Positions 12,001 through 25,850 of a stretch of 37,245 nucleotides of DNA are shown here, one piece after another (position 1 is the first letter of the stretch; each line of letters begins with the position of its first letter). Location: assembly GCA_030651035.1 (NCBI GenBank), contig JAUSCK010000006.1, positions 1 through 37,245 of the forward strand. Reading direction: 5' to 3'. The position numbers and the translations under genes were made by a program. Below the pieces are notes generated by a model that saw only the letters and a program-made list of their open reading frames with translations, did no database searches and had not been told where the DNA came from. This DNA comes from Elusimicrobiota bacterium (lineage in GTDB: Bacteria; Elusimicrobiota; Elusimicrobia; Elusimicrobiales; UBA9959).

Positions 12001-15000
12001 GTGATCTCCGGCCAGGCCGTGCTGCCGCTGATAGGAGAAGCCGGCGGTACCGAAGGCCAGGTCCTTTACACCGAGCCCAAGGACTACTTTGTCACCTACG
12101 ATATAAACCCGCTGGCCAATGTCTCGGCGGCCGCCTATCTCGGCATGGCCATACGCTCCACCGACTACTTCTCCATAGACTACCCCAAGTTCATGAGCCC
12201 CGCCATTATAGGCGTCGCCACGCCGGGCAAGACCCTCTCGCTGATCGGCCGCGTGGCCGAATACGCCGACGCTGTCACGGTAAGGGCCACGGACACCGTC
12301 ACCGGAGGTACGCTGCAGCAGAAGGCGGTGGACCAGACCATAATGAACTTCACCATTGAGACCAGCGTGGCCGACGCGATCTGGCGCTGGGTGCTGGTTT
12401 ACGCCACCGGCACGGTGGTGAAGGAAGGCACTGCCACGGGCGACGTCTCGGCGGTCAAGGTCTGGTACGACAAGGACAACAACGGCTTCCTGGGCAGCGC
12501 GGACCCGCTGATCGGGACCGGCGTCTTCGGCAATACCATCTTCGGCCCGCTGGCTGCCAGGGTCGACATCTCCACGCAGCGCGTGGTCACCTCCGCTGAG
12601 GCCGACTCGCTCCAGCTGTCGCGGCGCTACTTCGTTACCTACGACATAAAGGCTTCCGCCATGCCCAACGACTCCCTGGGCAACCCGCGCTTCCTGGGCG
12701 CCTACCTTAAGCCGGAGTCCTTCCCAACTGGCAGCCCGGGCGCGGAGGACCCGTCAAAGAACTCCATTTCCCTGCCCAATTTCTTCTCGCAGGCGACCTC
12801 CAACCTGAGCTTTACTTCCAGGCTCCGGGAGCTCATCTCGGCGCCCAGCACCGTGACGGTGCGGACCGAGCCCATCTTCTCGCCCGGCGGCGGGGCGTCC
12901 GCCCTTTCCACGCGCCTGGCCCAGGACATAGCCGGCGGCCTTCCCGGAGGCACCACGGATTCCGCCTGGCTGGTAGTTTCCACCGCCGGCCTCCCCTCGT
13001 CCGGCTATATTATTGTGGACAACGAGATAGTGCGCTACGCCGGCACCGCTTTCGGAGCGCTTACTACGGTCATCAGGGGCTCCTTCAACACGCCGGTGGT
13101 GGCCCACAGCTCCGGCTCGGTCGTCGGGGGCATGGTTTCGCAGGGCCTGGACAATTATCCCTACATGAAGATGACGATGGCGACTTCCGGCTACGGCGTG
13201 CGCTGGCGCGGCTTCAAGCTGTCCCGCAAGCAGCCGGCCGGCATAAACGGCTACGACTCCGACGTGGGAACGATCAGGGTCTGGAAGGATAACGGCAACG
13301 GCTTATTCGACCGCGACCCTGTCAGCGGCAGGAACACCTCCGATATTGTCGTAGGCTACGGGAGCTTCGGCGTTAACGACCCGGTGGGCAAGGCCACCAT
13401 CCTGGTGGCCGACCCGGCCCTTAATAAACAGAACTACGTGGTGGTGAGCGCCACCCCCACCGTGATCTTCGTGTCCATGGACATAGACAAGGCCTCGAAG
13501 TTCTCGCACGCGCAGCTCAACCCGCAGAACGACGTGCTGGGCGTCGAGGTCGTGTCCGAGGCCAACTTCATCTTCGGCCCCGATAATTCAGGCCACGACG
13601 CGCAGTTCCTGACGCCGGCCGCGGGGCCCGTCTCCGTGCTGATGCCGACCCTCAATAATATCTCGCTCACCCCGGAGGATATCTCCCCGGTGTCGACGAC
13701 GCAGAACGACAAGAACGTCGGCCTGCTGTCCATGCGCATGCGCGTGGATAAGACCTCGGCGCTCCTTGAGGCGGTTAGGCTGAACCGCCGCGGCTCCGCC
13801 AACGATTCGGACATAGACCTGATAAAGGTCTGGAGGGACTCCAACGATAACTGCCTGCTGGATTCCGTGGACACGGCCACCAATACGGCCGGGCTGTACC
13901 CCAACCTTATGACCTACGGCAACGAGGCCTACTCCTCCGGCACCCTCAACGTGGTGCTGAAGACCCCTATCGTCGTCACCACCAATACGTCCTGCGCCTT
14001 CATAACCTACGATATGTCGCAGTTCGCCCTGGTGGGTTCCAGCGCGGCCCTTAATATAAACTCCATCGCGGACTTTACTGTCGGCATCCCCAATACGCTC
14101 TCTCTTTCGACCTCGCCGATCAATACCATGCCGATAATAGTGCTGGAGATCCCGTCCAATGTGACCCTGGGCGCCACCGACATGGCGGCCGAACTGGTGC
14201 AGGTCGGCGGCGTGGGCCAGGCCCAGGCCGGGGTGCCTATGGCCCGCTTCAACCTTGCCACGGAGGCCGGCAACGCGCGCTGGAGCGCCATAAAGCTGCA
14301 GCGCACCGGCGCCTCCAACGACCCCAACGCGCCCTTCGCCAGGAACACGGACGTCAAGTTCATCTCCATCGTCCAGGATTCCAATCAGAACGACCTGCTG
14401 GACGTGAACGACGTGAACGTCTCGGAAGCCAGGACCACGCTGGCGGTCCTTTTCGCCTCCACCGACACCGTGCCGTTCCAGCTGGTGGTGGAATCCACGG
14501 CGGGCTTCCCGTCCGCCGGCCGCCTCTACATCAGCGGCGCCGAGCTGGCCTCCTACTCCGGGACCGGTATCTCCGCCTCCGGGAAGCCGTACCTGACCGT
14601 CACTTCCCGGGGCGAGAAGCTGGGCGACCTGATGACCCCGCACATCAGCCACGCCGCCCTGGCCTCGGTGCGCAAGGTGGACGTGTTCGACCAGGAGAGC
14701 ACGCTTAACACCCAGCTGACGGTCTTCCTCTCCCAGGTGCAGACCCTGAGCCCGCTGCCGCAGACCTATTTCGGCGTGTTCGATATAGGCGAAATGGCCA
14801 CCAAAGCCAATAAGGTGGGCCTGATGATCCGCGACAAGTCCTGGCTGACCGTTAACGTCCCCCACGACATCTCGCCCAGCATCTACATAGGCGTGACCAA
14901 GGTCCTGCCCAAGGGCACCTATATAGACGTCTTCCCGTTCAGCTCCAGCCTGGTGCCTATACGGGCCATAACGCTCAGGGTGACCGGCACGGACGTGTCG

Positions 15001-17127
15001 CCCAGGTCGGTGGAGAAGAAAACCCGGAACGCGCCGATGATGTCCTTCAGCATGGCCACGCAGTCCGACTATGTCGCGATAGGCCAGGTGAACATCACGC
15101 AGGGCGGCACCATCAGCAGCTCCACGCTGAACTACGGCGACGGGGACATCGCCAGCGTTTCCCTCTGGAAGGACGACGGCGATGGGGCCTTCAGCCCTAT
15201 AACGGATTACCGCCTGGGCTATTCGGTGAATTCAGCCACCAACCCGTTCAAGAACGGCATCCAGGTCAATCTGATGTCAGGCAACCTGCCCTACCTGGTG
15301 GTCTCAACCAGCCCGGTCGTCATGCACGTGACCTGCGACATCAGCTCAGCCACGGACCTCTCCGGCGCCGACACGCTGGGCCACCTCGCCAGCCTGTCGC
15401 TGAAGTACTTTGTCGACCTGCGCGGCCTGGGCGGCCTGCCGCTGGCCGCCGGCCAGTATGCCGGGGACAATTACCCGATGGGCTCGAACCAGGTGCTTAT
15501 CGCCCCGGCCATCATCCCGCTGACGCCGGTCTTTACGCCCATAACGCTGGCCTCCAACGGCTACCCCGCCTACGCGCTTACCGACTCCAGCGGGAACGTG
15601 GTGCAGGGAGCCGGCAATATGCCGCTTGCCAACACGGGATCCCCGCCCTGGATACGCAATAACCCGCCCGCCGGCTGCAAGGCCGGGGAGCCGCTTATAG
15701 ACATAAACGGCGACGGGATCCCGGACAACTTCGATTTCTACGGGACCGGCAAGTGCACCAATATCAGCCTCAACAACTCCGGCCTGCCCTCTTTCGATAT
15801 AGACGGGGACAACCTGCTGGACTTCGAGAGCAACATGGACTATGTGCCGGACCGCATAATGGACGACGGCGCCGGCAAGCCGCTCTATTTCCTGGGAGAC
15901 ACCGTCAAGAACGCCCGGCTGCTGCTGGCCGTCTCGGACCTGGGCTCCGTGCCCTCCGTCTGGTCCGCCAAGACCACCGAGCTGCCGGCGATGTGGAACC
16001 CCGCTTCGGGACTCGTGGTGTCGTATGAACTGTCGCTGGGCAACAGCTTCGCGAACCCCACCGATATTAAGAACGCCTGGCAGCCTACGGGGGCCTCGCT
16101 GGCCGGCAGGGTGACCAACGTGGCGCTGTCGCCGGGCCACTTCACCCGCCTGCTCACCCGCATAGACGTCAATACCTCCTCCTTCACCGTGCAGTCGTCC
16201 GCCGGGTTCGCCGCCGAAGGCATAGTCTACGTGGGCAACGAGATAATGCTGGTAAATAAGCTGGACGCCACCTCGTTCAAGATAGTGGAGCGCGGCATAC
16301 AGGGCTCGTTCAGGGGGCCGCATACCGCCTGGGGTGAGACCGTTTCCGACCGCGGCTATATCATGTCGGTGCGCGGCATAATGGCGGACGGGAGCTATGT
16401 GCCCAGCGAAAACGGCGCGCCGATAATGATCTACCGCATAGACACCACCTACCCCACGACGCCGGGCGCCCCGGAGCCGCAGGTGGCCAAGGGCCAGGCT
16501 TCCGGGCAGGCTTACACGCTCAAATGGACCGCCGCCGAAGACCCCGAGTCGAACCTCATGTCCTACGAAGTACAGGAGCGCGAGGGCACCAGCCCGGTCT
16601 GGAAGACGGTGGCGGCCATCCCCGGCTTCAAGACGGGGGGGGCCATAAACAATATCTATACGATAGGCGACACCAGCCTGCCGGGTGAAACCCCCAGGCC
16701 GCTGGGCACTTACTACACCTACAGGGTGCGCAGCTGGAACTTCGCCGGGCTGCATTCCGAGTGGTCGGATGTTTCCACCCCGGCCGGCACCACCATCGGC
16801 ACGGAGCTGCTGAGCAAGGTTTCCAGCTATCCTAACCCCGTGGATCTGCGCAAGGGCGGCGTTGAGGGAAGGGTTGACATCACTTATACACTGAACGATA
16901 ACGCCGAGGTGACGATGACGATCTACGACCTCCTTGGCTACGTGGTGCGCGAATTCAAGTTCTCGAGCGGCTCGGAGGGCGGCAAGCTGGGCCCGAACCA
17001 TGTGCTCTGGAACGGTCAGAACGGCTTGGGCGGGATCGTGGGAAAAGGCGGCTATATAGTGCGCGTGAAGGCCTCCAGCCCCAAGGGCAGCAAGGTGATA
17101 ATGCGCAAGGTGGGCGTGATACACTAG
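1..17127 (+). CDS. Giant modular surface/secreted protein with FlgD-Ig/T9SS-like C-terminal domain (5' end outside window)
   Basis: The frame is open from base 1 with no stop until TAG at 17125-17127, so the gene begins upstream and 5708 residues are visible. The GTG at 49 is internal: the codons before it already form the 'YDxxxP' motif that opens each module of the first repeat family. Order of parts: Ig-like modules (about residues 10-1200), invasin/filamin-like modules (about 1210-3380), a region with seven calcium-loop-like motifs and interspersed RG-type modules (about 3400-5450), a DxNGDG/DxDGD stretch near residues 5233-5275, an FnIII-like domain (about 5490-5600), and a C-terminal domain with 'YPNP' and 'IYDLLG' motifs (about 5603-5708). 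Such C-terminal domains mark export by T9SS/PorV-type systems, and a PorV-like gene follows directly. I infer a very long extracellular adhesin or fibre. No catalytic domain was recognised. Confidence is high that it is one real gene, moderate for function. Confidence 0.93.
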   Translation, partial: STIVTQDFIYDTQIPTVTVTSPSGADAYLGTLGYISGTSLDTNGLGEVRETYLRVKNQSLGQYWSWGTNNYTESSPDAAWFVVSTTETVLYSRWFSTGTAPGGPAGGVNLVTGSTYEMSSRVLDKAGNYNLVYSTRSITYDITKPTGAVTGLGGVSPAAFHRQISPVNGSGFDGLSGGAAGLALLNAGGAQVRILDKGIGKWWDYLAGNFSISGGDSAWFNANSGTSEGWSYTYLALPAKLDTELVTGSTYCVQYRGRDKSAPVNEGPSSDGNDALFTQPKDSVTFIADRLEPVSRVTFPRDGAHIKALVTVTGTAADANSGIAAMGQIGVSMREVSPGAGWWDGFSTGTFSASSEVFYPLSIDQAAIFAGGAWSFDSPALQHGYTYRVRVRVTDNAKPGGNVESAISSVTFVYDITAPAAAIVYPIGLSDLRGNIKAPSLVVSGTAFESYGIKSASVSVMQVGPPNFYYDPATSLFNAPSAGGPKWITAAILGLGPNYTWTVTAPALTDNKNYDLQVIADDLADNVLVPPTATTIRYDITPPASGAISPADGSFIKQLAAITGTALDPNSNPSTVAGTQIKIKRSDDQYWNGSTWGAENWLAGVAGSPAWSKTAQLPPSDNLTGLENGMLYTVQTRSYDIAGNTQTPAGILTGNSFRFDISSPTAFISQPLNGSRKISLPLVSGTASDVVPGAFNVDFPKVRLYDIALNRFWLDGTGWVDDEFGGFPEIWNVALDSSSAGGSFNWRWTPPPLTDQQRDNELRTDVKVMDRAGNYSITSSTFSFDNIPPLSRIKYPPANGALYSSMTAITGTTSDVTSGVSNVKILIWYLSGPSTYYWHTLAPHWSIDENWVAIPGAFALKGATGSPWTYSPLDFYTPGEDFAWKEGTHDGGNGKTFYIVTKARDGTTNDETALSTRTFVFDNVPPVSAPWQPGIDTAYKGLPTVYGTSTDAVTTVQDAKICILSENETAGPRYFNGSNFVNMAETWLPIMNLFQSSWTYTFGLSPFTTGQHYVVKSSATDSIGNVQNIVGRSRFLFDQLEPQSVVDSPINTMVEEDAKSLLGSSLDAGFTSGIDGSGSGVYPEAAKPWHAGKVEVMVFRDADPYIASNGPLNTSDADSSGYFWNGSTWTASAGGEIWVPAQFYDTLGNWQYTGLVCDGPGALPGDDERAAHTCWVRGDSYAAWVRVTDNAGNLQTIVSLGPKFYIAAKAASFLVTVAANPMTAGSDINLTVEARDGANGAGSTARAYQGTVNFSVDGVPGGPEVMDNDDTMDNYNGLPKRYTFLPGDYGVKTFQMRLRKAAPRTLRVADLDNVSIYGSRNVTVNPTAADRVQVIADFDTAGQLPAPGRTEAVVEGSTGTPRSKPAGSSVPFLLQVTDLYWNLVVSSAASVYVTDTDPNNGNISADGYVNFVGSTTLYRTFVSASPSGWGVTAAEQGISNPRNPSSNVPIMPQAATRLLALFPGESRVQGKWDVQPLGKTGTISSLLAGATFQTRVYGVDEYYNTDTTAGFKVYASIPTDPYDINPSSNTLVSGATAFIFTPVVAATHTIKAESSALAGAASVYYTPDPVTVWWNRPVKLHLIAPGQGLLPGLPTYGANPSPGGKSGSPGALTAGATAEMAVYLVDEYYNVVKGTTPFMAVSSNTPNIQIAFLNDANIQGRGMHPDPYQRSLLAGTTTFSVIPVTRNLSPGLSVQVTGFGGIGAQFSTDTVSGIVVNPAPARKLLLLVPTEAVAEGASGGKTGTAGPLTAGATYTITVRSMDIYGNLANDGRSVKLKSNDIYAVHPPAQLLDGGIADFIMGFVPSAATSNLVIDAIDFDSIEPKLSTSTDSGIVVNPGTASRLIVLLPTQYLVPGKVVAPFGVEGNISTQTAGVGFNSLVYAADTRYNRVTAGVPDKTLHVTTNDPFAADLGNFSMTAGSATLNNVILRTGGPRALTVNDPGGLGTTISGGFLLVPFTPTKLRAMIPGESRVAGSTTTGRSGADDGERQAGFPFTVTVDITDSFWNLTPGASQQVSLVADDLSATVVPPSQVITGSATFTVTPRRAGNTVLTAAMGSPAVPGGPTLAPDTATTILVAPGIPTRLLLVLPGESFSQGSATGRSGQAAAWKAGTDLGVRVYVVDDYFNKVPGRPADVKVNTPTDAYVPAVSTASLNTTLGYTDLILFSMRRAATHYLTVSDFLSSGLAVDLPSSTFTVRAADPMGLQLLLPGETAVPGSGNYPSGGKTVGASSQTAGTGFFATVNLVDRYMNVSQDLSVGPTVYLVTSDIYDIDSDSVPLNYGTNQVPLNLVTKVNSASARAYPVNIADNYVCSGNFGGVCLADDAAARVSFKVYASTAVRLEVVLPGQTLVEGKCAVSPPCRNASLAWPGRSGPPAQHTIGLGPLFAGIFLTDMFFNKATEASAADKDTNPIAVMPEVGVTMPGDTKTAPPAVQTLSNGSAVFSLDARTSISSYTVLAATSAVSPAGTGLYQSGISTLTVNPGPAASMAYVVASTNVVAGTPFSALLYVKDAYGNICSTGPNVYRGTATFVVTDQAKNIQDPVLIALTTSYYASDYGVKNLVNWFKLHKAGPDAIGARDSLNSAISVTPLLSLYVSHGPPTIYRVTPNLDEEVPAGSLISRAVREITGQLADSFDNNIPQAGLPAYVMMGEVYGSTGSINYKSGVTWFSVGTSTLVYTDALGQVGVSTPLGYQVSSKSGDWARVWIGTTTVPLSRAAYDTYAAARQNLSGQLATTGGTPSKLVYVSSQPAAWVGIQEVLENGNGAFFTVERRDDFDNVTRQEETGVYLGIPSAQVAVHTGLGRTMGTVGNVVGDYGFRDTENSEFITALIIPINQTQASFRYHDRTASYSGVSPAANDFEDGRPGYWQLEARSGAMQPAIHQLRVNPSGITQVAFGNAPRSMTAGKLKDRFGIVQVFRPELRDTFANPSVATAAVRVALSTHTRQASLINDSFSFSISSAFSGAFPPVFASTISFLDIPLDAYSATFYYLDTAASSVYASSAAPIKPILGLSVPEMVNWAASTQSVTIVPDLTYRVNVSSAAGQSLTAGATSQNFMLSIEDHYGNPTPVAGGQEDAADAGIAFTLDSTSLGGTKFSAPDPGYFMSKPGSARMLLGQASTSFYLIDTLVSAPTHQLTVNTVLSKGWLPAISSYTVTPAPPDHVVFHTTPRRLVAGTTVQYYLGLATATVVSVALKDRYENNTTTNSPVTVRFSAVRNTTYGGIDPSVPVLSSNPSWKLLKTNPLDLDIPVGYSYANIYVWDTIVGSTTITADPSIPADSLTLPSISQDQYITPSSASYFTLHHTYTLGSPLRVRAPGYLTLRARDPYGNAATGDSINGKYYVGKIKMATNSQGSADLWAYPQNTTDYTFTTADRGEHQLLVQDTLVENLKVTVTDYNLPLIFGYTNDSGRGVPVYSNADVVLSGLVITPRDFAPEDPLPADKRAIGITKRSIYQGDGVIADIPSPVPMLRLAMRTAPAGAPPAFLKSVQIKSSGTLTFSDIIEVGMYADNPAPGKGSLGTFEGETELGGSPVDIFMSSGTYDPAMMGWNFEDLIAKVSTAAIVSNTSRNFFFTVRMSTVAATPRSFALVMDNPDFIVLDSTFVGVAYNNFPIVTATSPVSNQPATIKIGGSDIGAWWKPANSASGRYNYVQQGTERAAFLAIQAWTENFIGTIRSFRIIKTGTGAGSDLKSVRLFLDDGSGVFDQAIDKEVTDPANPPTFDPADPGTFVLPLYNPGVDGTVSIATRTYFVVYEFTADAVPSPFYDPPRPETLITHGARLENSAVSLLDGVVGAFSPIVSSTVPLYATADMVYLQDVNKAAPNDFSKPSFVTQNDVNKAVARLTLEIKDSAGSAVWRGLKLDRWVTGSENGNTAAWNKVTDVKRISLWYDSTRDGLLQSTSAVKDIEVVLIGAQTRTFPYDTLRLPLKSTDTVIRVTDIQKFFPSDSPFPRTPGRLIMNDGQSDPSLKEVIYYSTVDVVANTFGGLTRFAEGTTNSVVWGSGTVISGQAVLPLIGEAGGTEGQVLYTEPKDYFVTYDINPLANVSAAAYLGMAIRSTDYFSIDYPKFMSPAIIGVATPGKTLSLIGRVAEYADAVTVRATDTVTGGTLQQKAVDQTIMNFTIETSVADAIWRWVLVYATGTVVKEGTATGDVSAVKVWYDKDNNGFLGSADPLIGTGVFGNTIFGPLAARVDISTQRVVTSAEADSLQLSRRYFVTYDIKASAMPNDSLGNPRFLGAYLKPESFPTGSPGAEDPSKNSISLPNFFSQATSNLSFTSRLRELISAPSTVTVRTEPIFSPGGGASALSTRLAQDIAGGLPGGTTDSAWLVVSTAGLPSSGYIIVDNEIVRYAGTAFGALTTVIRGSFNTPVVAHSSGSVVGGMVSQGLDNYPYMKMTMATSGYGVRWRGFKLSRKQPAGINGYDSDVGTIRVWKDNGNGLFDRDPVSGRNTSDIVVGYGSFGVNDPVGKATILVADPALNKQNYVVVSATPTVIFVSMDIDKASKFSHAQLNPQNDVLGVEVVSEANFIFGPDNSGHDAQFLTPAAGPVSVLMPTLNNISLTPEDISPVSTTQNDKNVGLLSMRMRVDKTSALLEAVRLNRRGSANDSDIDLIKVWRDSNDNCLLDSVDTATNTAGLYPNLMTYGNEAYSSGTLNVVLKTPIVVTTNTSCAFITYDMSQFALVGSSAALNINSIADFTVGIPNTLSLSTSPINTMPIIVLEIPSNVTLGATDMAAELVQVGGVGQAQAGVPMARFNLATEAGNARWSAIKLQRTGASNDPNAPFARNTDVKFISIVQDSNQNDLLDVNDVNVSEARTTLAVLFASTDTVPFQLVVESTAGFPSAGRLYISGAELASYSGTGISASGKPYLTVTSRGEKLGDLMTPHISHAALASVRKVDVFDQESTLNTQLTVFLSQVQTLSPLPQTYFGVFDIGEMATKANKVGLMIRDKSWLTVNVPHDISPSIYIGVTKVLPKGTYIDVFPFSSSLVPIRAITLRVTGTDVSPRSVEKKTRNAPMMSFSMATQSDYVAIGQVNITQGGTISSSTLNYGDGDIASVSLWKDDGDGAFSPITDYRLGYSVNSATNPFKNGIQVNLMSGNLPYLVVSTSPVVMHVTCDISSATDLSGADTLGHLASLSLKYFVDLRGLGGLPLAAGQYAGDNYPMGSNQVLIAPAIIPLTPVFTPITLASNGYPAYALTDSSGNVVQGAGNMPLANTGSPPWIRNNPPAGCKAGEPLIDINGDGIPDNFDFYGTGKCTNISLNNSGLPSFDIDGDNLLDFESNMDYVPDRIMDDGAGKPLYFLGDTVKNARLLLAVSDLGSVPSVWSAKTTELPAMWNPASGLVVSYELSLGNSFANPTDIKNAWQPTGASLAGRVTNVALSPGHFTRLLTRIDVNTSSFTVQSSAGFAAEGIVYVGNEIMLVNKLDATSFKIVERGIQGSFRGPHTAWGETVSDRGYIMSVRGIMADGSYVPSENGAPIMIYRIDTTYPTTPGAPEPQVAKGQASGQAYTLKWTAAEDPESNLMSYEVQEREGTSPVWKTVAAIPGFKTGGAINNIYTIGDTSLPGETPRPLGTYYTYRVRSWNFAGLHSEWSDVSTPAGTTIGTELLSKVSSYPNPVDLRKGGVEGRVDITYTLNDNAEVTMTIYDLLGYVVREFKFSSGSEGGKLGPNHVLWNGQNGLGGIVGKGGYIVRVKASSPKGSKVIMRKVGVIH
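28..3630 (+). repeat. Tandem Ig-like modules in the giant protein (about nine copies)
   Basis: A motif of the form F-x-[YF]-D-x-x-x-P recurs at about nt 28, 417, 858, 1240, 1612, 1975, 2350, 2760 and 3108, a spacing of roughly 350-440 nt (115-147 residues). Most copies are followed by a 'V-x-G-T-[AST]-x-D' strand and often a W/NGS-x-W turn. This resembles bacterial Ig-like beta-sandwich modules of cell-surface proteins. Copies are well diverged, not recent duplications. Confidence 0.8.
3634..10170 (+). repeat. Invasin/filamin-like beta modules with 'LLLPGE' and 'TAG' motifs (about fifteen copies)
   Basis: Modules begin with a strand like R-L-x-x-x-L-P-G-E/Q at about nt 4366, 4732, 5161, 5518, 5878, 6241, 6604 and 7012. 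More divergent starts lie near 3634, 3988, 7453, 8215, 8668, 9097 and 9475. Each continues with a T-A-G-[AT] turn and a 'D-x-[YF]-x-N' motif (for example DEYYN, DDYFN, DRYMN, DHYGN). The spacing is about 360-440 nt. The pattern matches Big_1/invasin or filamin-type Ig domains that build long surface stalks. Confidence 0.75.
11068..15216 (+). repeat. Seven calcium-loop-like repeats (WxDxxxDGxxD type)
   Basis: A strand-loop motif with hydrophobic-x-W/F followed by an acidic loop (D-x-[DNST]-x-[DN]-G/D-x-[LF]) recurs near nt 11068, 11647, 12454, 13276, 13825, 14365 and 15157. Examples are VWYDKDNNGFL, VWKDNGNGLF and LWKDDGDGAF. This is the geometry of EF-hand/dockerin-like calcium sites. Between them lie four modules of a different type (about 11782-12012, 12952-13131, 14461-14685, 16171-16350) with a 'sAGFPsxGxxxxxxE' strand and usually a later 'RG' motif. 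Calcium binding is inferred from motif only. Confidence 0.65.
16805..17124 (+). other. C-terminal FlgD-Ig/T9SS type A-like sorting domain of the giant protein
   Basis: The last ~105 residues contain YPNP, a 'TYTLNDNAEVTMTIYDLLG' strand pair, 'VR' after it, a W-N/D-G-x-N-x-x-G turn and a final G-x-Y-I-V-R-V strand. This is the canonical pattern of FlgD_ig/T9SS type A C-terminal domains. In Bacteroidota the equivalent domain is recognised by PorV and the T9SS translocon. The neighbouring PorV-like gene supports the same role here. Confidence 0.8.
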
Positions 17128-17151
17128 ATTGACCTGTCAAGCCCTACCCCC

Positions 17152-17223: not shown

Positions 17224-17302
17224 ACGATAATAGCAAAGCCGGTTAACGTCGGCGGCGCAAAGTCAAGACCCGCTAAATATGCGGGGGTCAGACTACCGAA
17301 AA
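17224..17302 (+). promoter_or_regulatory. Cyclic-di-GMP-I (GEMM-I) riboswitch
   Basis: Hallmarks of the GEMM-I aptamer occur in order: AGCAAAGCC (17232-17240), GGCGCAAAGTC (17253-17263) and GACTACCGAA (17291-17300). These match the GGCAAACC, GACGCAAAGCC and GUUACCGA blocks of the Vibrio Vc2 class. P2 pairs GCCGGT with GTCGGC wobbles and closes with a UAAC tetraloop, a UMAC loop of GNRA-like fold in place of the usual GAAA. P3 pairs GACCCGC with GCGGGGGTC with two extra Gs. It lies between a strong promoter and the PorV-like gene, so it likely senses c-di-GMP to control that gene and perhaps the motor genes. Whether it acts as an ON or OFF switch cannot be told. Confidence 0.85.
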
Positions 17303-17350
17303 ACGATGAAACGCAATTATTGTATTGCTTTTGCCCCCTTGGCTATATTA

Positions 17351-17373
17351 CTGAAGCGTGTAATGCGCTTCAG
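17351..17373 (+). promoter_or_regulatory. Hairpin presenting the PorV-like start codon (possible riboswitch expression platform)
   Basis: CTGAAGCG (17351-17358) pairs perfectly with CGCTTCAG (17366-17373) around the 7-nt loop TGTAATG, which contains the preferred ATG (17363-17365). The weak GAAG ribosome site is in the 5' stem. No U-run follows, so translational control is likelier than termination. Confidence 0.5.
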
Positions 17374-18916
17374 CGTATCCATGGGGCTTTTTATTGCGTT
17401 CTCGGCGGTCCTGTGCATGGCCCAGAGCGGCGGCCAGCCCGGGCAGTTCATGAGCTACGGCGCCGGCGCCAGGAGCCTCGGGATGGGCGGGGCCTTCTTC
17501 GCGGTGGCCGACGACGCCTCGGCCTCCTACTGGAACCCCGCCGCCCTGACCCTGCTCGAGCGCAAGGAATTTTCCGCCATGCAGGCCTCGATGTTCGCCG
17601 ACACCACACTGAACTTCTTCACCTACGCGCACCCCACCACCACCAAGGGCACCTGGGCTGTCAGCATGACGCAGCTCAAGTCGGTGGGCTTCGAGAAGAT
17701 AGAGATCACCGCCAACCCCGGCGGCGACGAGATCATAGATATCAAAACCCTGGGAACCTTCGACAGCGTAGAGCGCGCGCTGGCTTTCTCCTGGGGCCGC
17801 GACGTTTCCGATAAACTCTCCTTCGGCATCATGGCCAAGAACATAACCCGCACGCTGGACACTTCGGCCGACTCCTTCAACGCCATAGACGTGGCCATGC
17901 TGCAGAAGTTCTCCAAGACCTACCGGGCCGCCATAGGCGTGCAGAACGTCTTCTCGATGGCCTCCGGCGACACCGAGGACAAGCTGCCGCTGATCCTGAA
18001 GTTAGGCCAGGCGCTGAGCCTCTTCAAGGGCAACCTGCTGTTCGGCTTCGACATCATGAAGCCCCAGACCGCCGACATGAACTGGCGCTTCGGCGGCGAG
18101 TACTGGCTGATGTACTGGGCCGCGCTCCGCTTCGGCGTGATGGGCGCCCCCGGCATACAGGAGGCCGATTTCGGCCTGGGCATCAAGTACAAGGACCTGG
18201 GCTTCGACGTGGCGCAGGGCGTGCACGCGCTGGGCACCACCACCCGCTTCTCGGTCACCATGCGCATGGGCCAGTCCAACAAGGGCAAGCACGACCGCGA
18301 GGTCCGCGAGATAGTCCGCCAGGCCCTGCAGTACTTCAAGGCCGGCTACTTCAGCCGCGCCATGGAGAAGCTCCGCGCGGCGATGGACGCCGACCCGGGC
18401 AACGCCGAAATACGCCGCATGGTCACCCGCCTGCAGGGCGCCATAGACTATGTGCCCACCGCCACCGGCAGCGAGGAAGTGCCCACCCTCACCCGCCGCG
18501 GCATCATCGGCTACGTGGACGGCAAGGATATACGCGCCTCGGTCAACGTGCTGCGCCACGCCTTCAACAAAGACGCCAAGAACGACCGCCTGCTCTCGCT
18601 GCTGAACCTGGTGGAGAGGGAGGCCGGCGTGAGCGAGCTCACCCGCAAGCCCGAAGGCCCCGAGATCTTCACCTACATAGACCAGCGGACCTACGACGCC
18701 CGCCAGTCTATCTACGACGGCAAGTACGACATGGCCATGAAGCGCGCCCAGGACATCCTGGACCTGGAGCCCAACAACGAGACCGCGCTGGAGATCATGG
18801 GCAGCGCCTTCTACCTTATGGACCAGAAGGAGAAGGCCAAAGTGATCTGGGAGAAGGTGATAGAGATCAACCCCGGTAACACCATGGTGAAGAATTTCCT
18901 GAAACAGGTCAAATAA
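17363..18916 (+). CDS. PorV/UPF0164-like outer-membrane barrel protein with C-terminal TPRs
   Basis: Starting at ATG 17363 gives a 517-residue protein with a normal signal peptide (hydrophobic core IAFSAVLCMA before QSGG). The in-frame ATGs at 17279 and 17306 would start in or next to the riboswitch and give a poor signal peptide. After the signal the sequence 'GARSLGMGGAFFAVADDASASYWNPAAL' type pattern (cited in pieces: ARSLGMGGAF, ADDASA, WNPAAL) is diagnostic of UPF0164/PorV-PorQ barrels related to FadL. About residues 25-310 form the barrel. Two TPR-like stretches follow (about 315-360 and 435-517), probably periplasmic. PorV carries T9SS substrates across the outer membrane; here the giant protein upstream is the obvious client. 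Regulation by c-di-GMP is suggested by the leader. The barrel-TPR fusion is unlike Bacteroidota PorV. Confidence 0.85.
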   Translation: MRFSVSMGLFIAFSAVLCMAQSGGQPGQFMSYGAGARSLGMGGAFFAVADDASASYWNPAALTLLERKEFSAMQASMFADTTLNFFTYAHPTTTKGTWAVSMTQLKSVGFEKIEITANPGGDEIIDIKTLGTFDSVERALAFSWGRDVSDKLSFGIMAKNITRTLDTSADSFNAIDVAMLQKFSKTYRAAIGVQNVFSMASGDTEDKLPLILKLGQALSLFKGNLLFGFDIMKPQTADMNWRFGGEYWLMYWAALRFGVMGAPGIQEADFGLGIKYKDLGFDVAQGVHALGTTTRFSVTMRMGQSNKGKHDREVREIVRQALQYFKAGYFSRAMEKLRAAMDADPGNAEIRRMVTRLQGAIDYVPTATGSEEVPTLTRRGIIGYVDGKDIRASVNVLRHAFNKDAKNDRLLSLLNLVEREAGVSELTRKPEGPEIFTYIDQRTYDARQSIYDGKYDMAMKRAQDILDLEPNNETALEIMGSAFYLMDQKEKAKVIWEKVIEINPGNTMVKNFLKQVK

Positions 18917-19057: not shown

Positions 19058-20968
19058 ATGAGGAAGTTTCTCTTTGCGGTCCTTCTTGCTTTGCCGGCTT
19101 TGCCTGCCGCGCAGACCGGCATGGATTCCTCCCTGATGGAGAAGCAGGATTCCATGCGCCGCGAGACGGAGACCAAGGTCAAGAAGGAGATCCTGGACCC
19201 GATACTGGGGGCGGACAGGTCCTTTGTTTTCGCCGACGTGGAACTGGAGGTGATCGCTAAAAAGGCGGAGCAGACCAAGGAAGGCATGGGCATAATACAG
19301 AAGTACAAGGAGAAGGGCGGCGGGCAGAACAACCCCGACACCGATTTCCTCCTGCCGGGGATCCCGAAGCCCAGGTCCGTGCTGGGGGGGGAGAACAAGC
19401 GCCCGGAGGCGGCCACGGGGCAGCAGGCCCAGCAGGCCAAGAACGTGCAGGAGATACGCTACGGCCTCGAGACCGAGATAACCCGCTTCCAGCTCACCAT
19501 CATACACGACGAAACGCTGCCGAAAGATTCCGTAAAACTGGCCCGCGAGCGCGTCGACGATTACCTGCTTCCTTATAAAATACGCAAGAAGGACGCGCCG
19601 ACCGTGGTTTTCAAGCCGACGAAATTCAAGACGGTCAACCCGCTGGACGACCTGAAGCGGCCGGGGGTTTACCTGCCGTTGCTTTATGCGCTGCTTTTCC
19701 TTATACTTCTATTGTTCCTGTTCGGCCCCCTCTGGGGCTTCTTCCGCAAGTACGTCAAGGCGCTGATGGCCAAGCCCGGCGCCGAGGTCAATATAGAGCA
19801 GAAGATGGAGGAGGGCGGCGGAGGAGGAGGGGAGGATGAAGGGAAGCAGGATACGGAAGGCCACCAGGCCATAGACATGACCTATGGCGAGGCGGGAAAG
19901 GAAGAAGAGGACGAGACTATGAAGAAATTTGAACCCTTCACTTACCTGACCGAGGAAAACCTCAAGCGCCTGATATACCTGTTCCTCATGCGCAAAGAGG
20001 ACCCCTGGGTTATCGCTATAGTGCTGAGCTATATGAAGCCGGACCTCGCCAGGCAGGTTCTTTCGATGCTTCCTATAGAGATGCAGTCCAAGGTTGCCCT
20101 TGAGGCCCTCACCGTGCGCCAGGCCACCCGCGCGCAGATAGAGGCCATAGACAAGGATATACGCGAAAGCGTGGATTTCGTGATGGGCGGCATAGAGCGG
20201 ATGATCAAGATGCTCGAGGAGGCCGACCCCGCCATAAAGAAGAACATCCTGGAGTATCTTAAAACCCAGAAGCCCGATATCTATGAAAAGATAAAAAGGG
20301 CCATCCTCATGTTCGAAGACCTCCCCACCTATTCCGACAAGGACCTGCAGACGATAATAAGGGGCGTGGGCAACGAAGACATCGCCAAGGCCCTCAGCAA
20401 GGCGGATCCGCAGATAGTGACCAAGTTCTTCTCCAACATGTCGCAGGGCGCCTCCAACGCCATTAAGGAAATAATGGAGTACTCCGCCGGGATCAGCGTT
20501 GCCCAGATAGACGAGGCGCAGACGAAGATCCTGGACGCAGTGAAGAAACTGGAGGCCGAGGGGAAGATCACCGCCCGCGAGGGCAGCTCGCAGGAGATCT
20601 GCATGATAGACGGCGGGGATATGTCCTCAGGCGACGACAGACGCCGCAAGTACGAAAGCATGGCCGGCGCCAAAACCGAAGCCACCGGGGGCCTCACTCC
20701 CGAACAGCTGGAGCAGGCCGGCCAGTACCTGGCCGCCGGGGTGGACATGTACAACCAGGGGAAGATACCGGAAAGCCTGCAGTACCTGGAATACGCCTCC
20801 TCGGTCAACGCCGGGGACGCGCAGACCTGGCAGTACCTCGGCGCGGCCTATTATTCCCAGCAGCGCGTGGACGACGCCGTGGCGGCTTACGAGAAGTATG
20901 CCGCCCTTTCAGGCGACCCGGCCGCCGCCGAATGGCTGGCCGGATTTAAGCAGTCGGTCGGAAAATAA
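19058..20968 (+). CDS. FliF-FliG-TPR fusion: minimal flagellar-type rotor protein
   Basis: This 636-residue protein joins parts normally split between the MS-ring and switch. Residues 1-19 are a signal peptide. Residues ~38-199 match the periplasmic FliF domain before the second TM: 'LDPILGADRSFVFADVELE' resembles FliF's LxPvlGxxxxxVxVxxELd, and the later 'YGLETEITRF' segment its companion. RBM1 and RBM2 (YscJ-type) are absent. A TM spans ~204-226. A Gly/Glu-rich linker leads to FliG middle and C domains (~291-498), with EDPW (314-317) where FliG has EHPQ, MGG near 376, MFEDL, and a torque helix at ~445-480. The FliG N domain, which normally binds FliF, is missing, as expected for a covalent fusion. 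Two TPRs end the protein (~546-636). Start ATG 19058 fits the signal peptide; no clear Shine-Dalgarno is seen. An inner-membrane rotor with cytoplasmic FliG facing MotA is inferred. Confidence 0.85.
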   Translation: MRKFLFAVLLALPALPAAQTGMDSSLMEKQDSMRRETETKVKKEILDPILGADRSFVFADVELEVIAKKAEQTKEGMGIIQKYKEKGGGQNNPDTDFLLPGIPKPRSVLGGENKRPEAATGQQAQQAKNVQEIRYGLETEITRFQLTIIHDETLPKDSVKLARERVDDYLLPYKIRKKDAPTVVFKPTKFKTVNPLDDLKRPGVYLPLLYALLFLILLLFLFGPLWGFFRKYVKALMAKPGAEVNIEQKMEEGGGGGGEDEGKQDTEGHQAIDMTYGEAGKEEEDETMKKFEPFTYLTEENLKRLIYLFLMRKEDPWVIAIVLSYMKPDLARQVLSMLPIEMQSKVALEALTVRQATRAQIEAIDKDIRESVDFVMGGIERMIKMLEEADPAIKKNILEYLKTQKPDIYEKIKRAILMFEDLPTYSDKDLQTIIRGVGNEDIAKALSKADPQIVTKFFSNMSQGASNAIKEIMEYSAGISVAQIDEAQTKILDAVKKLEAEGKITAREGSSQEICMIDGGDMSSGDDRRRKYESMAGAKTEATGGLTPEQLEQAGQYLAAGVDMYNQGKIPESLQYLEYASSVNAGDAQTWQYLGAAYYSQQRVDDAVAAYEKYAALSGDPAAAEWLAGFKQSVGK

Positions 20969-21153: not shown

Positions 21154-23682
21154 ATGGACGACAGGGATAAGAAACTTCCAAAACCCGGCATGCCCCCGCT
21201 GCCGCCCGGCATGCTCAAGCCCAATTTTCCGTCCGCCCCCGGCGGACCCGGCAGACCTTCTTTGCCGCCCATGCCCTTCGGCGCGCTGCCCGCCGCCGGC
21301 TCCGTGCACGGTCCCGCCCAGCCGCAGAAAGACGACTCCGCGCAGCTGCGGAAGGAAGCCGCTGAGGCCGAGGCGCGCCGGACGCAGGAGGATAAGGACA
21401 AGCTTGAGAAGAAGATCACGGACATGGAGAAGCTCCTGTCCCAGGAAAAGGAAAAAGCCCTGCTGGCTACCCTTAAAAACCAGCAGGACGAGGCACTTTC
21501 CTCCCGCGTGGAATCCTCGCTTAAGGACATACAGGAGAAGATGCGCCGCGACCGCCGCGACCATGAGGTCGAGGAGGAGAGGCTCGCTCTCAAGGGCAAG
21601 ATCAAAGAGATGGAAATGCGCCTGTCCCAGGAGCGCGAGACCTGGATGCAGACGCTCAAGAACCAGATGTCCGAGCGGGAAACCCAGGGCCGCGACGTGG
21701 AAGGCCATTTCATCAACCGCCTGCAGGAGATGGAGCGCCGCTGGCTGGACGAGAAGGCGCAGTGGCAGAAGGAAATTTCAAGCCGCGAGGAGACGATACG
21801 CTCCCTCAAGTCCGCGTCCGAGAAGCTGCGCGACCTGGAGGACGAATTCCGCAAGCTTTCGCTCGAGAAGTCCATGACGGAGCGCGAAGCTTCGAAGCTC
21901 CGCGACGAGGTGGCCCGCGCCGAGCGCGAGAAAGCCTCGATAGAATCCTACATAAAGATGATCCCGGAGAAAGAGCGGGAGATAGGCGAGCTCAGGTCGG
22001 AGAACACCGCGCTGCGCGGCCGGGAGGAGATGACAAGCGCCATGCAGCGCGGCCGCGAAGAGGCCATCCGTCTCGAGGCCATACATCGCGACGAAAGGAA
22101 TAATATCGAGCTGGAGAAATTCCAGAGGGAGATAGGCCGCCTGCAGTCCGAGATCGGTTCGCTCTCCGACCGCAAGAACGTAGAGAAGAACGAGGAGCTT
22201 AAGGCGGTTCAGGCCCGCTATGAGGAGCAGCTGCTGGAAAAGGACAAGGCCTTCGCCGATGTTTCCGGAGAGAAGATCCGGGCGATCTCCGAGCTGATGA
22301 AGATCAAAGGCTTCGTCTCGCGGGTGCAGGCTATCAACGCCGTGCTCGACAAGGAGCGCGGCCAGCTGAAGCTTGAAAAAATGCAGCTCGCGCAGAACAT
22401 GGCCGCCCAGCTCGAGGAGCTGAAGCGCCTGAAGGCCGAGAACGACGGTTTCAAAGCCGCCCACCAGTCGGAGCTCCAGATCCAGGCGGAAAATTTCAAG
22501 GCTGAAGTAAACAGGGTGAAGAACGGATACGCGGTGGAGCTCGCCCATAAGCACGCGGAAGAGATGGCTAAGATCCTCCGCGCCCACCAGGAAGAAACCT
22601 CAAGCGCGGCCGCCGCCCGCCAGGCAGAGGACGCAAATACGGCCGCCGCCCACCAGGCGGAGATAGCAAGCGCGGCCGCCACCCGGCAGGCGGAGATAGC
22701 AAGCGCGGCTACCGCCCACCAGGAAGAGACCGCGCGTATGGCCGCCGCCCACCAGGAAGAGACCGCGCGTATGGCCGCCGCCAACCAGCTGGAACTTGCA
22801 AGAACGGCTGCGGCGCGCCAGGCCGAAATGTCGAAGATGGCAGCCGATTATCAGGCCCTGCTGGCCAGGCTGACCGCCGAGCGGCAGTCGGAGTCCGACG
22901 CGAAAATTTCCCAGATGCGCATGCAGTACGAGGCCTCGGCCGAGGAAGAAAAAAACGCCCTCAGGCGCCAGCTGGAGGAATCTCACGCTTTGCAGCTGCA
23001 GGAAGTCAAGGCCGCCGCTGCAGCCGCGCAGGATTCCGTCCTTAAGCTGGATGTCGATAACCGCCGCCTTGCGGCCGATGCCGCTGATTTTGACCGTGCG
23101 CTGGCCGCCAAAACCAAGGAGTTCGAGGACCGTCTTGCCTGGGCCGAAGAAGACGCGCACCGCCAGGAGGCCGAAGCGCGCCGCCAGGAGGCCAGCCGGC
23201 AGGAAGCGCAGGCCGCCGCAGCCGCCGCTCAGAAAGAGGAGGCGGAGAAAGCTTTCCGTGAAGTCGTGGAGGAGCGCAAGTGTATAGCGGACGAATACGC
23301 GGCCATGCTGGAAAAGATCCCGCCGCTGGAGGCCCGGAACTCCGCCGCCGAGGCCGAGGCCGCAAAGCTGGCCGAGAATCTTCGCATCCAGACCGAGAAT
23401 CTCCGCCTTGAAAGCGAGAACCGCACCCGCTTTGAATCCGAACTGCTTTTCCTCAAGCAGAAGATCCAGCAGATGGAATTCCAGTCCCAGGAGAACGAGA
23501 GCCAGCGCGAGGCCGAGCGCGCAACTCTGGCAAACCTCCAGGCCGCCGCCACCGGGCAGCAGAGCCGCGACCTGGCGCGCATTCAAGAGCTTTCAGCCGA
23601 ACTGGAAAGCTACAAGACACTGGAGTCTTCCCTCGCCGGAAGGCTGAAGTGGGCGATAAAAGGGAAAAAGACGGAGGAGTAG
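21154..23682 (+). CDS. Proline-rich/coiled-coil cytoplasmic protein with hendecad repeats
   Basis: This 842-residue protein has no signal peptide or membrane segment. Residues 1-55 are rich in Pro and Gly (PPLPPG, PSLPPMP). From ~60 to the end the sequence is almost wholly charged coiled coil, rich in E, R, K, Q and A. Residues 466-586 form an 11-residue repeat array. No known family was recognised; SMC/AglZ/scaffold-like coils look similar at this level. It sits between the FliF-FliG fusion and flbD-motA-motB, all on one strand, so a structural or regulatory role with the motor is likely. It could act as a scaffold localising the motor, with the Pro-rich head as a docking segment for GYF- or SH3-like domains. 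That partner role is speculative. Confidence 0.8.
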   Translation: MDDRDKKLPKPGMPPLPPGMLKPNFPSAPGGPGRPSLPPMPFGALPAAGSVHGPAQPQKDDSAQLRKEAAEAEARRTQEDKDKLEKKITDMEKLLSQEKEKALLATLKNQQDEALSSRVESSLKDIQEKMRRDRRDHEVEEERLALKGKIKEMEMRLSQERETWMQTLKNQMSERETQGRDVEGHFINRLQEMERRWLDEKAQWQKEISSREETIRSLKSASEKLRDLEDEFRKLSLEKSMTEREASKLRDEVARAEREKASIESYIKMIPEKEREIGELRSENTALRGREEMTSAMQRGREEAIRLEAIHRDERNNIELEKFQREIGRLQSEIGSLSDRKNVEKNEELKAVQARYEEQLLEKDKAFADVSGEKIRAISELMKIKGFVSRVQAINAVLDKERGQLKLEKMQLAQNMAAQLEELKRLKAENDGFKAAHQSELQIQAENFKAEVNRVKNGYAVELAHKHAEEMAKILRAHQEETSSAAAARQAEDANTAAAHQAEIASAAATRQAEIASAATAHQEETARMAAAHQEETARMAAANQLELARTAAARQAEMSKMAADYQALLARLTAERQSESDAKISQMRMQYEASAEEEKNALRRQLEESHALQLQEVKAAAAAAQDSVLKLDVDNRRLAADAADFDRALAAKTKEFEDRLAWAEEDAHRQEAEARRQEASRQEAQAAAAAAQKEEAEKAFREVVEERKCIADEYAAMLEKIPPLEARNSAAEAEAAKLAENLRIQTENLRLESENRTRFESELLFLKQKIQQMEFQSQENESQREAERATLANLQAAATGQQSRDLARIQELSAELESYKTLESSLAGRLKWAIKGKKTEE
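22549..22911 (+). repeat. Eleven hendecad (33-nt) repeats in the coiled-coil gene
   Basis: Eleven consecutive 11-residue blocks follow the pattern A-[HRN]-Q-x-E-x-A-x-x-A-A (for example AHQEETARMAA, ARQAEMSKMAA). Two neighbouring blocks near 22714-22779 are an exact 33-bp tandem duplication, a sign of recent repeat expansion. Hendecads favour a straight or slightly right-handed coiled coil. Confidence 0.9.
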
Positions 23683-24098: not shown

Positions 24099-24881
24099 AT
24101 GGATATAGCTACATTCACCGGAATAATAGTCTTCCTGGGCTTCGTGTTCGGGGCCATCTACCTTGGCGAGGGCATGGCCGGCTTCAAGCCTTTCATAAAT
24201 ATGGAGGCCTTCCTGATCGTCATGGGCGGAACTTTCTGCGCCCTGCTCGTCAATTTCCCGCTGTCCTCCGTTATAGGCGTGACCAAGGTGCTCAAAAAGG
24301 TCCTTTCCTCCAAGGGCGAGGACACTTCCAAGCTGGTTACCACTTTCGTCGCCCTGTCCCAGAAGGCGAAAAAAGAGGGCTTCCTGGCGCTCGAGTCGGA
24401 CGCTAAAGCGATAGACAACGATTTCCTGAAGCGCGGCGTTCAGCTGGTCATAGACGGCGCCGACCACGAATTCATCCGCAACATGCTCGAGACCGAGATC
24501 GATTTCATAAGGGAGCGCCACAAGGCGGGCCGCGAGATCTTCAACGCCCTGGGCACCTACGCCCCGGCCTTCGGCATCATAGGCACGGTGCTGGGCATGA
24601 TCATGATGTTGTCTTCCATCGACGACGTGGCCCAGGTGCCGCGCCGCATGGCGCTGGCGCTGGCCGCCGCCTTCTACGGCCTGGGCTCAGGCTACTGGCT
24701 TTTCATGCCCATGTCCGGCAAGCTCAAGCACCGCTCCGAAGAGGAACTTTTTGTCAAAGAGATCATCATACGCGGCGTGCTGCTGCTGCAGAGCGGGGCC
24801 ACGCCCAGCGTCGTTGAGGCCAACCTGAAGGCCTACCTGGAGCCGGAAAAGCGCAAGACCGTGAAGAAAGAGGGCGCGTAG
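24099..24881 (+). CDS. motA: MotA/PomA-type flagellar motor stator protein
   Basis: A 260-residue four-helix inner-membrane protein of normal MotA length. TM segments lie at about 3-23, 34-53, 150-172 and 183-205. The cytoplasmic loop carries K91 and E99 in 'KKEGFLALE', aligned with E. coli R90 and E98, which contact FliG. The conserved prolines are present in APAFGIIG and in FMPMSGKL. It forms the ion-conducting stator with MotB, which follows 30 nt later. The ion used cannot be decided from sequence alone, although the KKEGFLALE loop is PomA-like. Located between flbD and motB, in the order known from flagellar operons. Confidence 0.93.
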   Translation: MDIATFTGIIVFLGFVFGAIYLGEGMAGFKPFINMEAFLIVMGGTFCALLVNFPLSSVIGVTKVLKKVLSSKGEDTSKLVTTFVALSQKAKKEGFLALESDAKAIDNDFLKRGVQLVIDGADHEFIRNMLETEIDFIRERHKAGREIFNALGTYAPAFGIIGTVLGMIMMLSSIDDVAQVPRRMALALAAAFYGLGSGYWLFMPMSGKLKHRSEEELFVKEIIIRGVLLLQSGATPSVVEANLKAYLEPEKRKTVKKEGA

Positions 24882-24911: not shown

Positions 24912-25703
24912 ATGCGGAGAAGAGTCAAGGGAATGATAGATGAGGACGACAAACGGGTAGCCCCGATGGGCGAGCCCGCGCCCCCGTGGATGGTCAACTA
25001 CGCCGACCTGATGACCGAGCTGGTCTGCTTCTTCGTCATCCTTTACGCCCTCAGCGCCGCCCTCAATAAGGACATGCAGAAGGCCCAGGCCGACATACAG
25101 GCGATGATAGAAGAGGGCAAGATGCAGGGGCAGGTCGCCATGGACAAAGAGGGCATGCGCATAACCATGGAGGAGCAGAGCCAGATGGCCTTCTTTGAAA
25201 GCGGGCGCGCCGAGCTCACCGACAATATGCGGGCCCAGCTGGACAAGATCGCCCCGGTGCTCCGCACCCTCTCCGAGAAGCACGATATAGTGGTGGAGGG
25301 CCACACCGACAATATGCCGATAGCCACCAAACAGTTCGCCTCGAACTGGGAGCTGTCCACCGCCCGCGCCACCAGCGTGGTGAAATCCATGCTGGCAAGC
25401 AATTTCACCCCGAAGCGGATGTCCGCGGTGGGCTACGGGGAATACCACCCGATCGTGGTTAACGACAGCGATGCGAACCGCAAGAAAAACCGGAGGGTGG
25501 TGTTCTTTATAAAGAACAACCCCTACCCGGACGCGCCCGCCGCCGGGCCGCCGGGGATAGCCGGGGCGGCCGTGTCCACCGCCGCGGTCACGCAGGCGCC
25601 CGACGGAGAAAATCCGGCGCCCGCCGCCGAGGCGGAAATTCCCGCGCCTGCCGGCGAAGGCGCCGCACCGGAAGGGGCAGCTCCCGCCGGAGGCGGGGAG
25701 TAA
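24912..25703 (+). CDS. motB: MotB-type stator protein with OmpA-like peptidoglycan-binding domain
   Basis: 263 residues. A short cytoplasmic head is followed by PPWMVNYADLMTE, with the ion-binding aspartate at D32, and a TM helix (~28-48). A plug-like amphipathic helix (~52-68) comes next. An OmpA/MotB domain (~90-212) carries VEGHTDN, NWELSTARA and GYGE..P motifs and N-R-K-x-N-R-R-V. The last ~48 residues are an Ala/Pro/Glu-rich tail not typical of MotB. AGGG near 24899 may be the ribosome site. It anchors the MotA stator to peptidoglycan. Confidence 0.93.
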   Translation: MRRRVKGMIDEDDKRVAPMGEPAPPWMVNYADLMTELVCFFVILYALSAALNKDMQKAQADIQAMIEEGKMQGQVAMDKEGMRITMEEQSQMAFFESGRAELTDNMRAQLDKIAPVLRTLSEKHDIVVEGHTDNMPIATKQFASNWELSTARATSVVKSMLASNFTPKRMSAVGYGEYHPIVVNDSDANRKKNRRVVFFIKNNPYPDAPAAGPPGIAGAAVSTAAVTQAPDGENPAPAAEAEIPAPAGEGAAPEGAAPAGGGE

Positions 25704-25752: not shown

Positions 25753-25842
25753 TCACACAAAGACACAAAGACACGAAGTAATAATAGGAAATGAGATCGG
25801 AAAAGTAGTGCCTTGGCTTTGTGGCTTAGCGGCTTTGTGTGA
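25753..25842. repeat. Intergenic inverted repeat with 8-nt-period arms
   Basis: The left arm (25753-25778) contains ACACAAAG/ACACAAAG/ACACGAAG and the right arm (25817-25842) CTTTGTGG/CTTAGCGG/CTTTGTGT. The outer 10 bp (TCACACAAAG/CTTTGTGTGA) pair perfectly. It fills the gap between motB and the lipoprotein gene and ends 8 nt before that gene's start. Confidence 0.85.
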
Positions 25843-25850
25843 CAAAGATT

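Follow-up and report, generated by a model that had tools for sequence, protein, structure and literature searches.

The flagellar rotor has hitherto been regarded as inseparable from the flagellum, and the flagellar type of MotAB stator is treated as a clade with one job, that of driving this organelle (PMC12505986). One paper notes that Elusimicrobia lack flagellar genes (PMC7031533). What does a gene that joins FliF to FliG, encoded together with MotA and MotB, do in such a genome? To answer this question, we analyzed the window, a stretch of 37,245 nucleotides that makes up the entire contig C34 of a 4.47-Mb metagenome-assembled genome (96% complete). The best overall explanation, which we consider probable, is a non-flagellar, proton-driven rotary motor across the envelope, with the fusion (hereafter FliFG) as its rotor and a gliding-like output. 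We thereby propose a motor for bacteria thought to be flagellum-free, and suggest that Elusimicrobiota, most of which are without a flagellum, have a rotary machine that serves movement or export at their cell surface.

The fusion protein and its operon

FliFG is part of a co-directional block of eight genes, after which housekeeping genes follow:

1..17127, + strand: giant secreted surface protein of at least 5,708 amino acids (5′ end outside the contig), with Ig-like repeats and a FlgD-Ig/T9SS sorting-domain-like C-terminal tail (Pfam Big_13 3.7e-6, above the cut-off; Pfam FlgD_ig 9.6e-6, just below the cut-off; NCBIfam Por_Secre_tail 0.0021, below the cut-off)
17279..18916, + strand: PorV/PorQ-family outer-membrane beta-barrel with C-terminal TPRs, here PorV-TPR (NCBIfam NF033709 PorV_fam, 114 bits against a cut-off of 90; Pfam TPR_2/TPR_19)
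19058..20968, + strand: FliF(RBM3/collar)-TM-FliG(M,C)-TPR fusion of 636 amino acids, a single uninterrupted frame in the ORF analysis of the window (Pfam, phmmer, structure models)
21154..23682, + strand: long coiled-coil protein of 842 amino acids with a proline-rich N terminus (sequence); no TM or signal by hydropathy, and no Pfam family; its length is greater in deep-branching relatives, where it reaches 2,103 amino acids
23834..24061, + strand: FlbD-family small motility protein (PF06289, 3.3e-24)
24099..24881, + strand: full-length MotA of the flagellar type, MotP/MotA/PomA-like (PF01618 3.7e-28; NCBIfam MotP 9.8e-72, MotA 5.3e-67)
24912..25703, + strand: MotB with plug/TM, Asp32, and an OmpA-type peptidoglycan-binding domain (PF13677 6.3e-12; PF00691 8.1e-20)
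25839..26600, + strand: predicted lipoprotein (LAGC box), conserved after MotB (sequence; recurrence in loci)

Within the fusion, the following parts can be told apart:

19058..19114, + strand: signal peptide, residues 1-19, MRKFLFAVLLALPALPAAQ (sequence; hydropathy)
19115..19627, + strand: FliF RBM3/beta-collar domain, residues 20-190, predicted periplasmic (Pfam on orthologues, AF2, Foldseek)
19661..19771, + strand: TM helix, residues 202-238, with a hydrophobic core at 204-222 (model; hydropathy)
19985..20170, + strand: FliG middle domain (FliG_M), residues 310-371 (Pfam, 3.3e-10, above the cut-off; alignment)
20255..20572, + strand: FliG C-terminal torque domain (FliG_C), residues 400-505 (Pfam, 6.7e-28, above the cut-off; phmmer, structure, alignment)
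20699..20959, + strand: TPR domain, residues 548-634, predicted cytoplasmic (Pfam, TPRs at 559-620; model)

Hydropathy gives two hydrophobic segments, residues 4-22, which have the n/h/c organization of a signal peptide with ALPAAQ as its final letters, and the TM core. In a phmmer search against the PDB, Thermotoga maritima FliG matches residues 292-516 (1.7e-31), and PDB matches recognize the FliG part by structure as well; FliG_C extends to about residue 508, and the NCBIfam fliG model scores 117 bits, below its cut-off of 226.7. RBM1 and RBM2 are absent, as the modeled chain opens directly with the RBM3 helix after the signal peptide. FliG_N is likewise absent by Pfam and model, the interval between TM and FliG_M being an acidic, glycine-rich linker (about 240-285) of low model confidence. 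A Pfam FliG_N match at 319-398 was discarded, being below the cut-off and overlapping FliG_M.

The N domain of the window protein itself has no FliF match in Pfam. Among 48 aligned orthologous N domains, YscJ_FliF_C matched 22 and was the sole clearly recurrent family, and a paralogue on contig C29 of the same genome matches it above the cut-off (1.6e-9). An AF2 model of residues 20-240, of moderate confidence (mean pLDDT 74, pTM 0.47), consists, in model numbering, of a helix (2-31), long strands (36-53 and 113-132), a second helix (137-150), and a strand (163-169), followed by the TM. The top 17 Foldseek matches of this model in the PDB were all FliF RBM3/collar or MS-ring structures (best 1.6e-5). 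VIA-align superposed it on FliF structures with Z of about 12 and rmsd mostly of 2.1-2.8 (best: Z 12.2, rmsd 2.2, 100 residues) over segments (Salmonella FliF 228-438, Vibrio FliF 256-452) that correspond to RBM3/collar, and the next unrelated fold, OsmC/Ohr, had a Z of 9.7. An hhalign comparison of the N-domain profile with FliF showed no signal (prob 0.7); the FliF alignment, made of two sequences, was too shallow for it. At the level of structure prediction, the N domain is thus confirmed as a FliF RBM3/collar fold leading into a TM helix.

These results uphold the domain order given by a previous sequence-only reading of this DNA (signal peptide, FliF RBM3, one TM, FliG M and C, and TPRs in a single frame) by Pfam, phmmer, AF2, and hydropathy, and the modeled and Pfam domain boundaries agree with its view that RBM1, RBM2, and FliG_N are lacking. 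Its suggestion that a covalent link replaces the FliF-FliG interface, with FliG_N gone, is borne out by the domain make-up, and its idea of a stripped-down MS ring holds on the domain reading.

We scanned 84,980 species genomes with two short peptide patterns and obtained 79 loci, 75 of which are relatives of the fusion and place it in the phylum Elusimicrobiota; their contigs bear the names Elusimicrobia, Elusimicrobiota, Elusimicrobiales, Endomicrobia(les), or just "bacterium". The remaining four were rejected as ordinary FliG, one in Poribacteria (flagellar FliG) and three in Listeria (FliF and FliG as separate genes). A frameshift or misassembly that joined fliF and fliG is therefore ruled out, as the same fusion is conserved at 75 loci in other, independent assemblies. 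PorV lies directly upstream of FliFG at 57 of the 64 testable loci, and the giant protein recurs upstream in relatives. At the 54 fusion loci with more than 5.5 kb of 3′ sequence, the downstream genes include the coiled coil in every case, MotA and MotB in 48 each, FlbD in 47, and the lipoprotein in 43. FlbD belongs to what we take to be the family of Bacillus subtilis SwrD/YlzI. According to the passage of PMC9195833 that cites Hall 2018, SwrD/YlzI raises motor power, a role that by analogy would fit FlbD in a torque-generating unit. Deep-branching relatives have an inserted second coiled coil of 1,500-2,100 amino acids, in some with a TPR-like tail. At locus L057 (2814-9125, − strand), a 2,103-aa coiled coil with such a tail comes immediately after FliFG and would measure ~300 nm if it were one continuous coil. 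Locus L055 (3-19535) carries tandem motor sets, FliFG-MotA-MotB and then PorV-FliFG-coiled coils-FlbD-MotA-MotB.

Co-occurrence with MotA and the torque interface

Within the phylum, FliFG matches were found in 153 of 341 genomes, spread over 69 of 100 genera, and MotA was also found in 153. Both were present in 149 genomes, FliFG alone in 4, MotA alone in 4, and neither in 184 (Fisher p about 3e-86, relatedness ignored). Some deep-branching genomes have FliFG and MotA on separate contigs (G244, C1 and C31; G329, C11 and C21), and the correlation therefore reflects more than linkage.

FliG positions were assigned by alignment with T. maritima FliG and are named here by what we take to be their E. 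coli numbers (K264, R281, D288, D289, and R297). Of these torque charges only the D288 position is kept, as Glu in all 50 fusions (Glu471 in the window protein). The R281 position is Gly in 48 of 50 (Gly464 in the window protein), the R297 position is mostly Thr or Ser, and the D289 and K264 positions vary. The 52 MotA proteins encoded at these loci have Lys (50) or Arg (2) at the R90 position (Lys91 in the window MotA) and Gln (31) or Glu (21) at the E98 position. In flagella, R90 contacts D288-D289 and E98 contacts R281 (PMC12505986). Rotor and stator thus agree in having kept one contact pair and lost the other, as would be expected of partners that work together and co-evolve. Asp32 of MotB, moreover, is invariant in all 50 readable relatives. 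The pairing of rotor and stator is well supported by the operon, the co-occurrence, and the matched changes at the torque interface, and on these sequences FliFG is very likely the rotor that the MotAB of its operon would drive. A point against our best explanation is that the fusions have lost the equivalents of R281 and R297, which sets them apart from the FliG of flagella. With D288/R90 retained and R281/E98 lost on both sides, the system offers a natural experiment on the importance of individual FliG-MotA contacts.

The EHPQ motif of FliG_M binds FliM in flagella. In the fusions it has become E[E/D]PW, and the GG hinge is retained (377-378 in the window protein). FlhA (PF00771) was not detected in this genome and is present in 5 of the 341 genomes of the phylum, and FliM/FliN (PF01052) were detected in none of 51 relatives, this genome included; each search was positive in 4 of 14 controls. 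With the altered EHPQ motif and with FliM/FliN and FlhA undetected, nothing points to a C-ring or to switching, and a true flagellar switch is rejected. The "switch" of the sequence-only reading is accordingly unsupported, as is its placing of the TPRs "where the C-ring would be". What identifies the system is a context that this reading did not take up, namely an operon with MotA, MotB, FlbD, PorV-TPR, and the giant secreted protein, together with several paralogous clusters elsewhere in the genome.

A proposed motor and its alternatives

From FliF and FliG structures, sequence, and gene order, we infer ring formation, rotation, coupling to PorV, and a gliding output, as follows. Many copies of the fusion would form a ring through the periplasmic FliF RBM3/collar, each subunit anchored by one TM helix, and the FliG C domains would face MotA in the cytoplasm, as suggested by FliF and FliG structures. 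The operon's MotA and MotB would be the stators, with MotB as the tether to peptidoglycan, and ion flow would turn the ring through a simplified interface in which MotA Lys91 faces FliG Glu471. From the periplasmic collar, torque would reach the TPRs of the PorV-family outer-membrane protein, and this protein would carry or sort the giant T9SS-type surface protein; read from gene order, this route via PorV-TPR to giant surface proteins is in our view probable. The most likely output would be gliding-like movement of surface adhesins, the job of GldLM in Bacteroidota. We give gliding a slightly better than even chance of being the result and regard secretion as doubtful. A cytoplasmic scaffold for placing or linking motors would probably be built from the long coiled coil and the TPRs of the fusion, and the occurrence of several paralogous sets within a genome points to several machines that differ in cargo. 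The full proposal is that of a separate kind of bacterial rotary machine, in which a MotAB-driven FliFG ring without export apparatus or C-ring would span the periplasm to PorV-type carriers and pull giant surface proteins along in gliding; each cell would have several copies of it, specific to different cargoes. We advance it tentatively, at somewhat less than even odds.

The leading alternative, in our judgment unlikely, is that the motor powers type IX secretion itself, taking the place of PorLM/GldLM in the export of the giant proteins by way of SprA, and that motility is not involved. SprA, sorting domains, and the PorV family, which speak for it, are present in the genome. A SprA homologue (G000:C52:8500-13689, a frame of 1,836 amino acids) is 57% identical over about 1,705 amino acids to an Elusimicrobiota SprA. 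The latter, picked from a weak PF14349 match, served as a closer query and detected the homologue, which PF14349 had missed. CHU_C sorting domains occur at 11 places, 5 of them above the cut-off, and several PorV-TPR proteins are encoded. GldM (PF12081) and GldL (TIGR03513) were not found in searches in which no control genome gave a true positive, and the same applies to the PorU sortase (PF01364). Secretion and SprB movement, moreover, are served by one motor in Flavobacterium (PMC8986121). However, genera g14 and g18 of the same order keep SprA and are missing both FliFG and MotA; the motor is therefore not required for the translocon as such, which favors surface-protein movement over a role in secretion. 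In addition, each FliFG set is accompanied by a PorV of its own and in many cases by a separate giant protein, an arrangement better suited to cargo-specific machines than to a motor for secretion in general.

We regard it as improbable that FliFG-MotAB is a non-rotary complex, that is, a static scaffold or force sensor that passes a PMF-driven conformational change across the envelope. The loss of two classical charged FliG residues would agree with such a complex, as would the coiled-coil and TPR parts, which suggest scaffolding, and a HATPase_c domain on one paralogue coiled coil. Yet the K91-E471 pair is retained, MotB keeps its invariant Asp32, MotA is of the full flagellar type, and RBM3 is the domain by which the S ring oligomerizes in FliF structures, all of which speak against a non-rotary complex. 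That the unit is a degenerate remnant of a lost flagellum, as the flagellar descent of its rotor and stator parts (FlbD included) might suggest, is highly improbable given a conserved operon, co-occurrence across 69 of 100 genera, best MotA matches mostly more than 55% identical across the phylum, several paralogues per genome, and one genome (G110) in which FlhA stands alongside a full-length fusion, which is therefore no stand-in for a lost flagellar part.

Comparison with known systems and paralogous sets

The proposed rotary motor shares with the flagellar motor the FliF RBM3/collar fold, FliG_M and FliG_C, a flagellar-type MotA, a MotB with Asp32 and an OmpA domain, and FlbD. It differs in that FliF and FliG form one chain, which lacks RBM1, RBM2, and FliG_N and has gained TPRs, in that the genome is without detected FlhA, FliM, and FliN, in the loss of the R281/E98 pair, and in its operon partners, PorV and giant secreted proteins. 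With the Bacteroidota T9SS/gliding motor (GldLM, SprA, PorV, SprF, and SprB) it shares a PMF motor, a PorV-family barrel, SprA, T9SS-like sorting domains, and a giant repeat surface protein, but MotAB and a FliFG rotor stand in place of GldLM, GldL and GldM being undetected in searches that had no positive control. The Agl-Glt gliding machine of Myxococcus, with AglRQS, the AglZ coiled coil, and TPR proteins, resembles it in having a MotAB-family motor, a long cytoplasmic coiled coil, and TPR envelope proteins and in being flagellum-free. Unlike those considered here, the AglRQS stators fall in the generic (non-flagellar) clade (PMC12505986), and no FliF or FliG rotor accompanies them. Engineered FliF-FliG fusions of Salmonella and Vibrio, which are also covalent chains, assemble rings (PMC6079021, PMC11481574). 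The Salmonella fusion is described as full-frame and should keep all FliF and FliG domains, whereas the present fusion is natural, non-flagellar, and without RBM1, RBM2, and FliG_N.

Because defining flagellar features (FlhA, FliM/FliN) are missing and the motor differs from the known T9SS/gliding machine, we classify this as a new kind of system built from known parts, known here from its genes. If the proposal is true, a FliG rotor would here, for the first time to our knowledge, serve outside the flagellum, and this across most genera of a phylum. A literature search on FliG and gliding, Elusimicrobia, FliF-FliG fusions, and non-flagellar FliG, with subscription journals and preprints outside its scope, found no description of such a system. 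Occurring naturally and phylum-wide, and lacking an export gate, FliM, and FliN, the FliFG-MotAB unit shows what the minimum requirements of a torque-generating rotor may be, and suggests how the core of the flagellar motor could act alone, or be reused, in driving the outer membrane.

The genome holds further FliFG sets on contigs C29 (PorV-TPR, FliFG, and coiled coil), C111 (giant protein, PorV-TPR, FliFG, MotA, and MotB), and C31 (CHU_C protein, PorV-TPR, sensor kinase, FliFG, and a coiled coil with HATPase_c); a single machine seems to have been duplicated for different cargoes. In a FliG_MC tree, the window-type fusions form a single clade (support 0.97), and the root and the C29, C111, and C31 paralogues are left unplaced. 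The C31 coiled coil (L012, 9737-11710, − strand) ends in its HATPase_c domain (2.2e-18), and the sensor kinase is on the opposite flank of FliFG; together they are a possible signaling input to the motor. At the same locus (16763-17149, − strand), a 128-aa exported protein with hardly anything besides a CHU_C type IX sorting domain adjoins a PorV-TPR gene, and similar small proteins precede PorV in L057, L058, and L153. A putative L,D-transpeptidase-like protein (HGCIR motif; L008, 15059-15754, + strand) follows the FliFG and coiled-coil genes of C29. Stand-alone RBM3 proteins with a signal peptide and no FliG occur on C173 and C268 (181 amino acids at L013, 2969-3514, − strand; 198 amino acids at L014, 7145-7741, + strand), and a 194-aa MotA-like protein comes next after the former. 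Lastly, an Elusimicrobiota genome with FlhA encodes, at L167 (G168:C208), a flagellar FliF of 383 amino acids (866-2017) with apparently RBM1/RBM2 and a TM and no RBM3, followed by a 248-aa FliG (2023-2769) with N and M parts and no C domain. Roughly speaking, this pair mirrors the window fusion, in which RBM3 and FliG_C are retained, and is possibly a torque-less, flagellar-type secretion apparatus.
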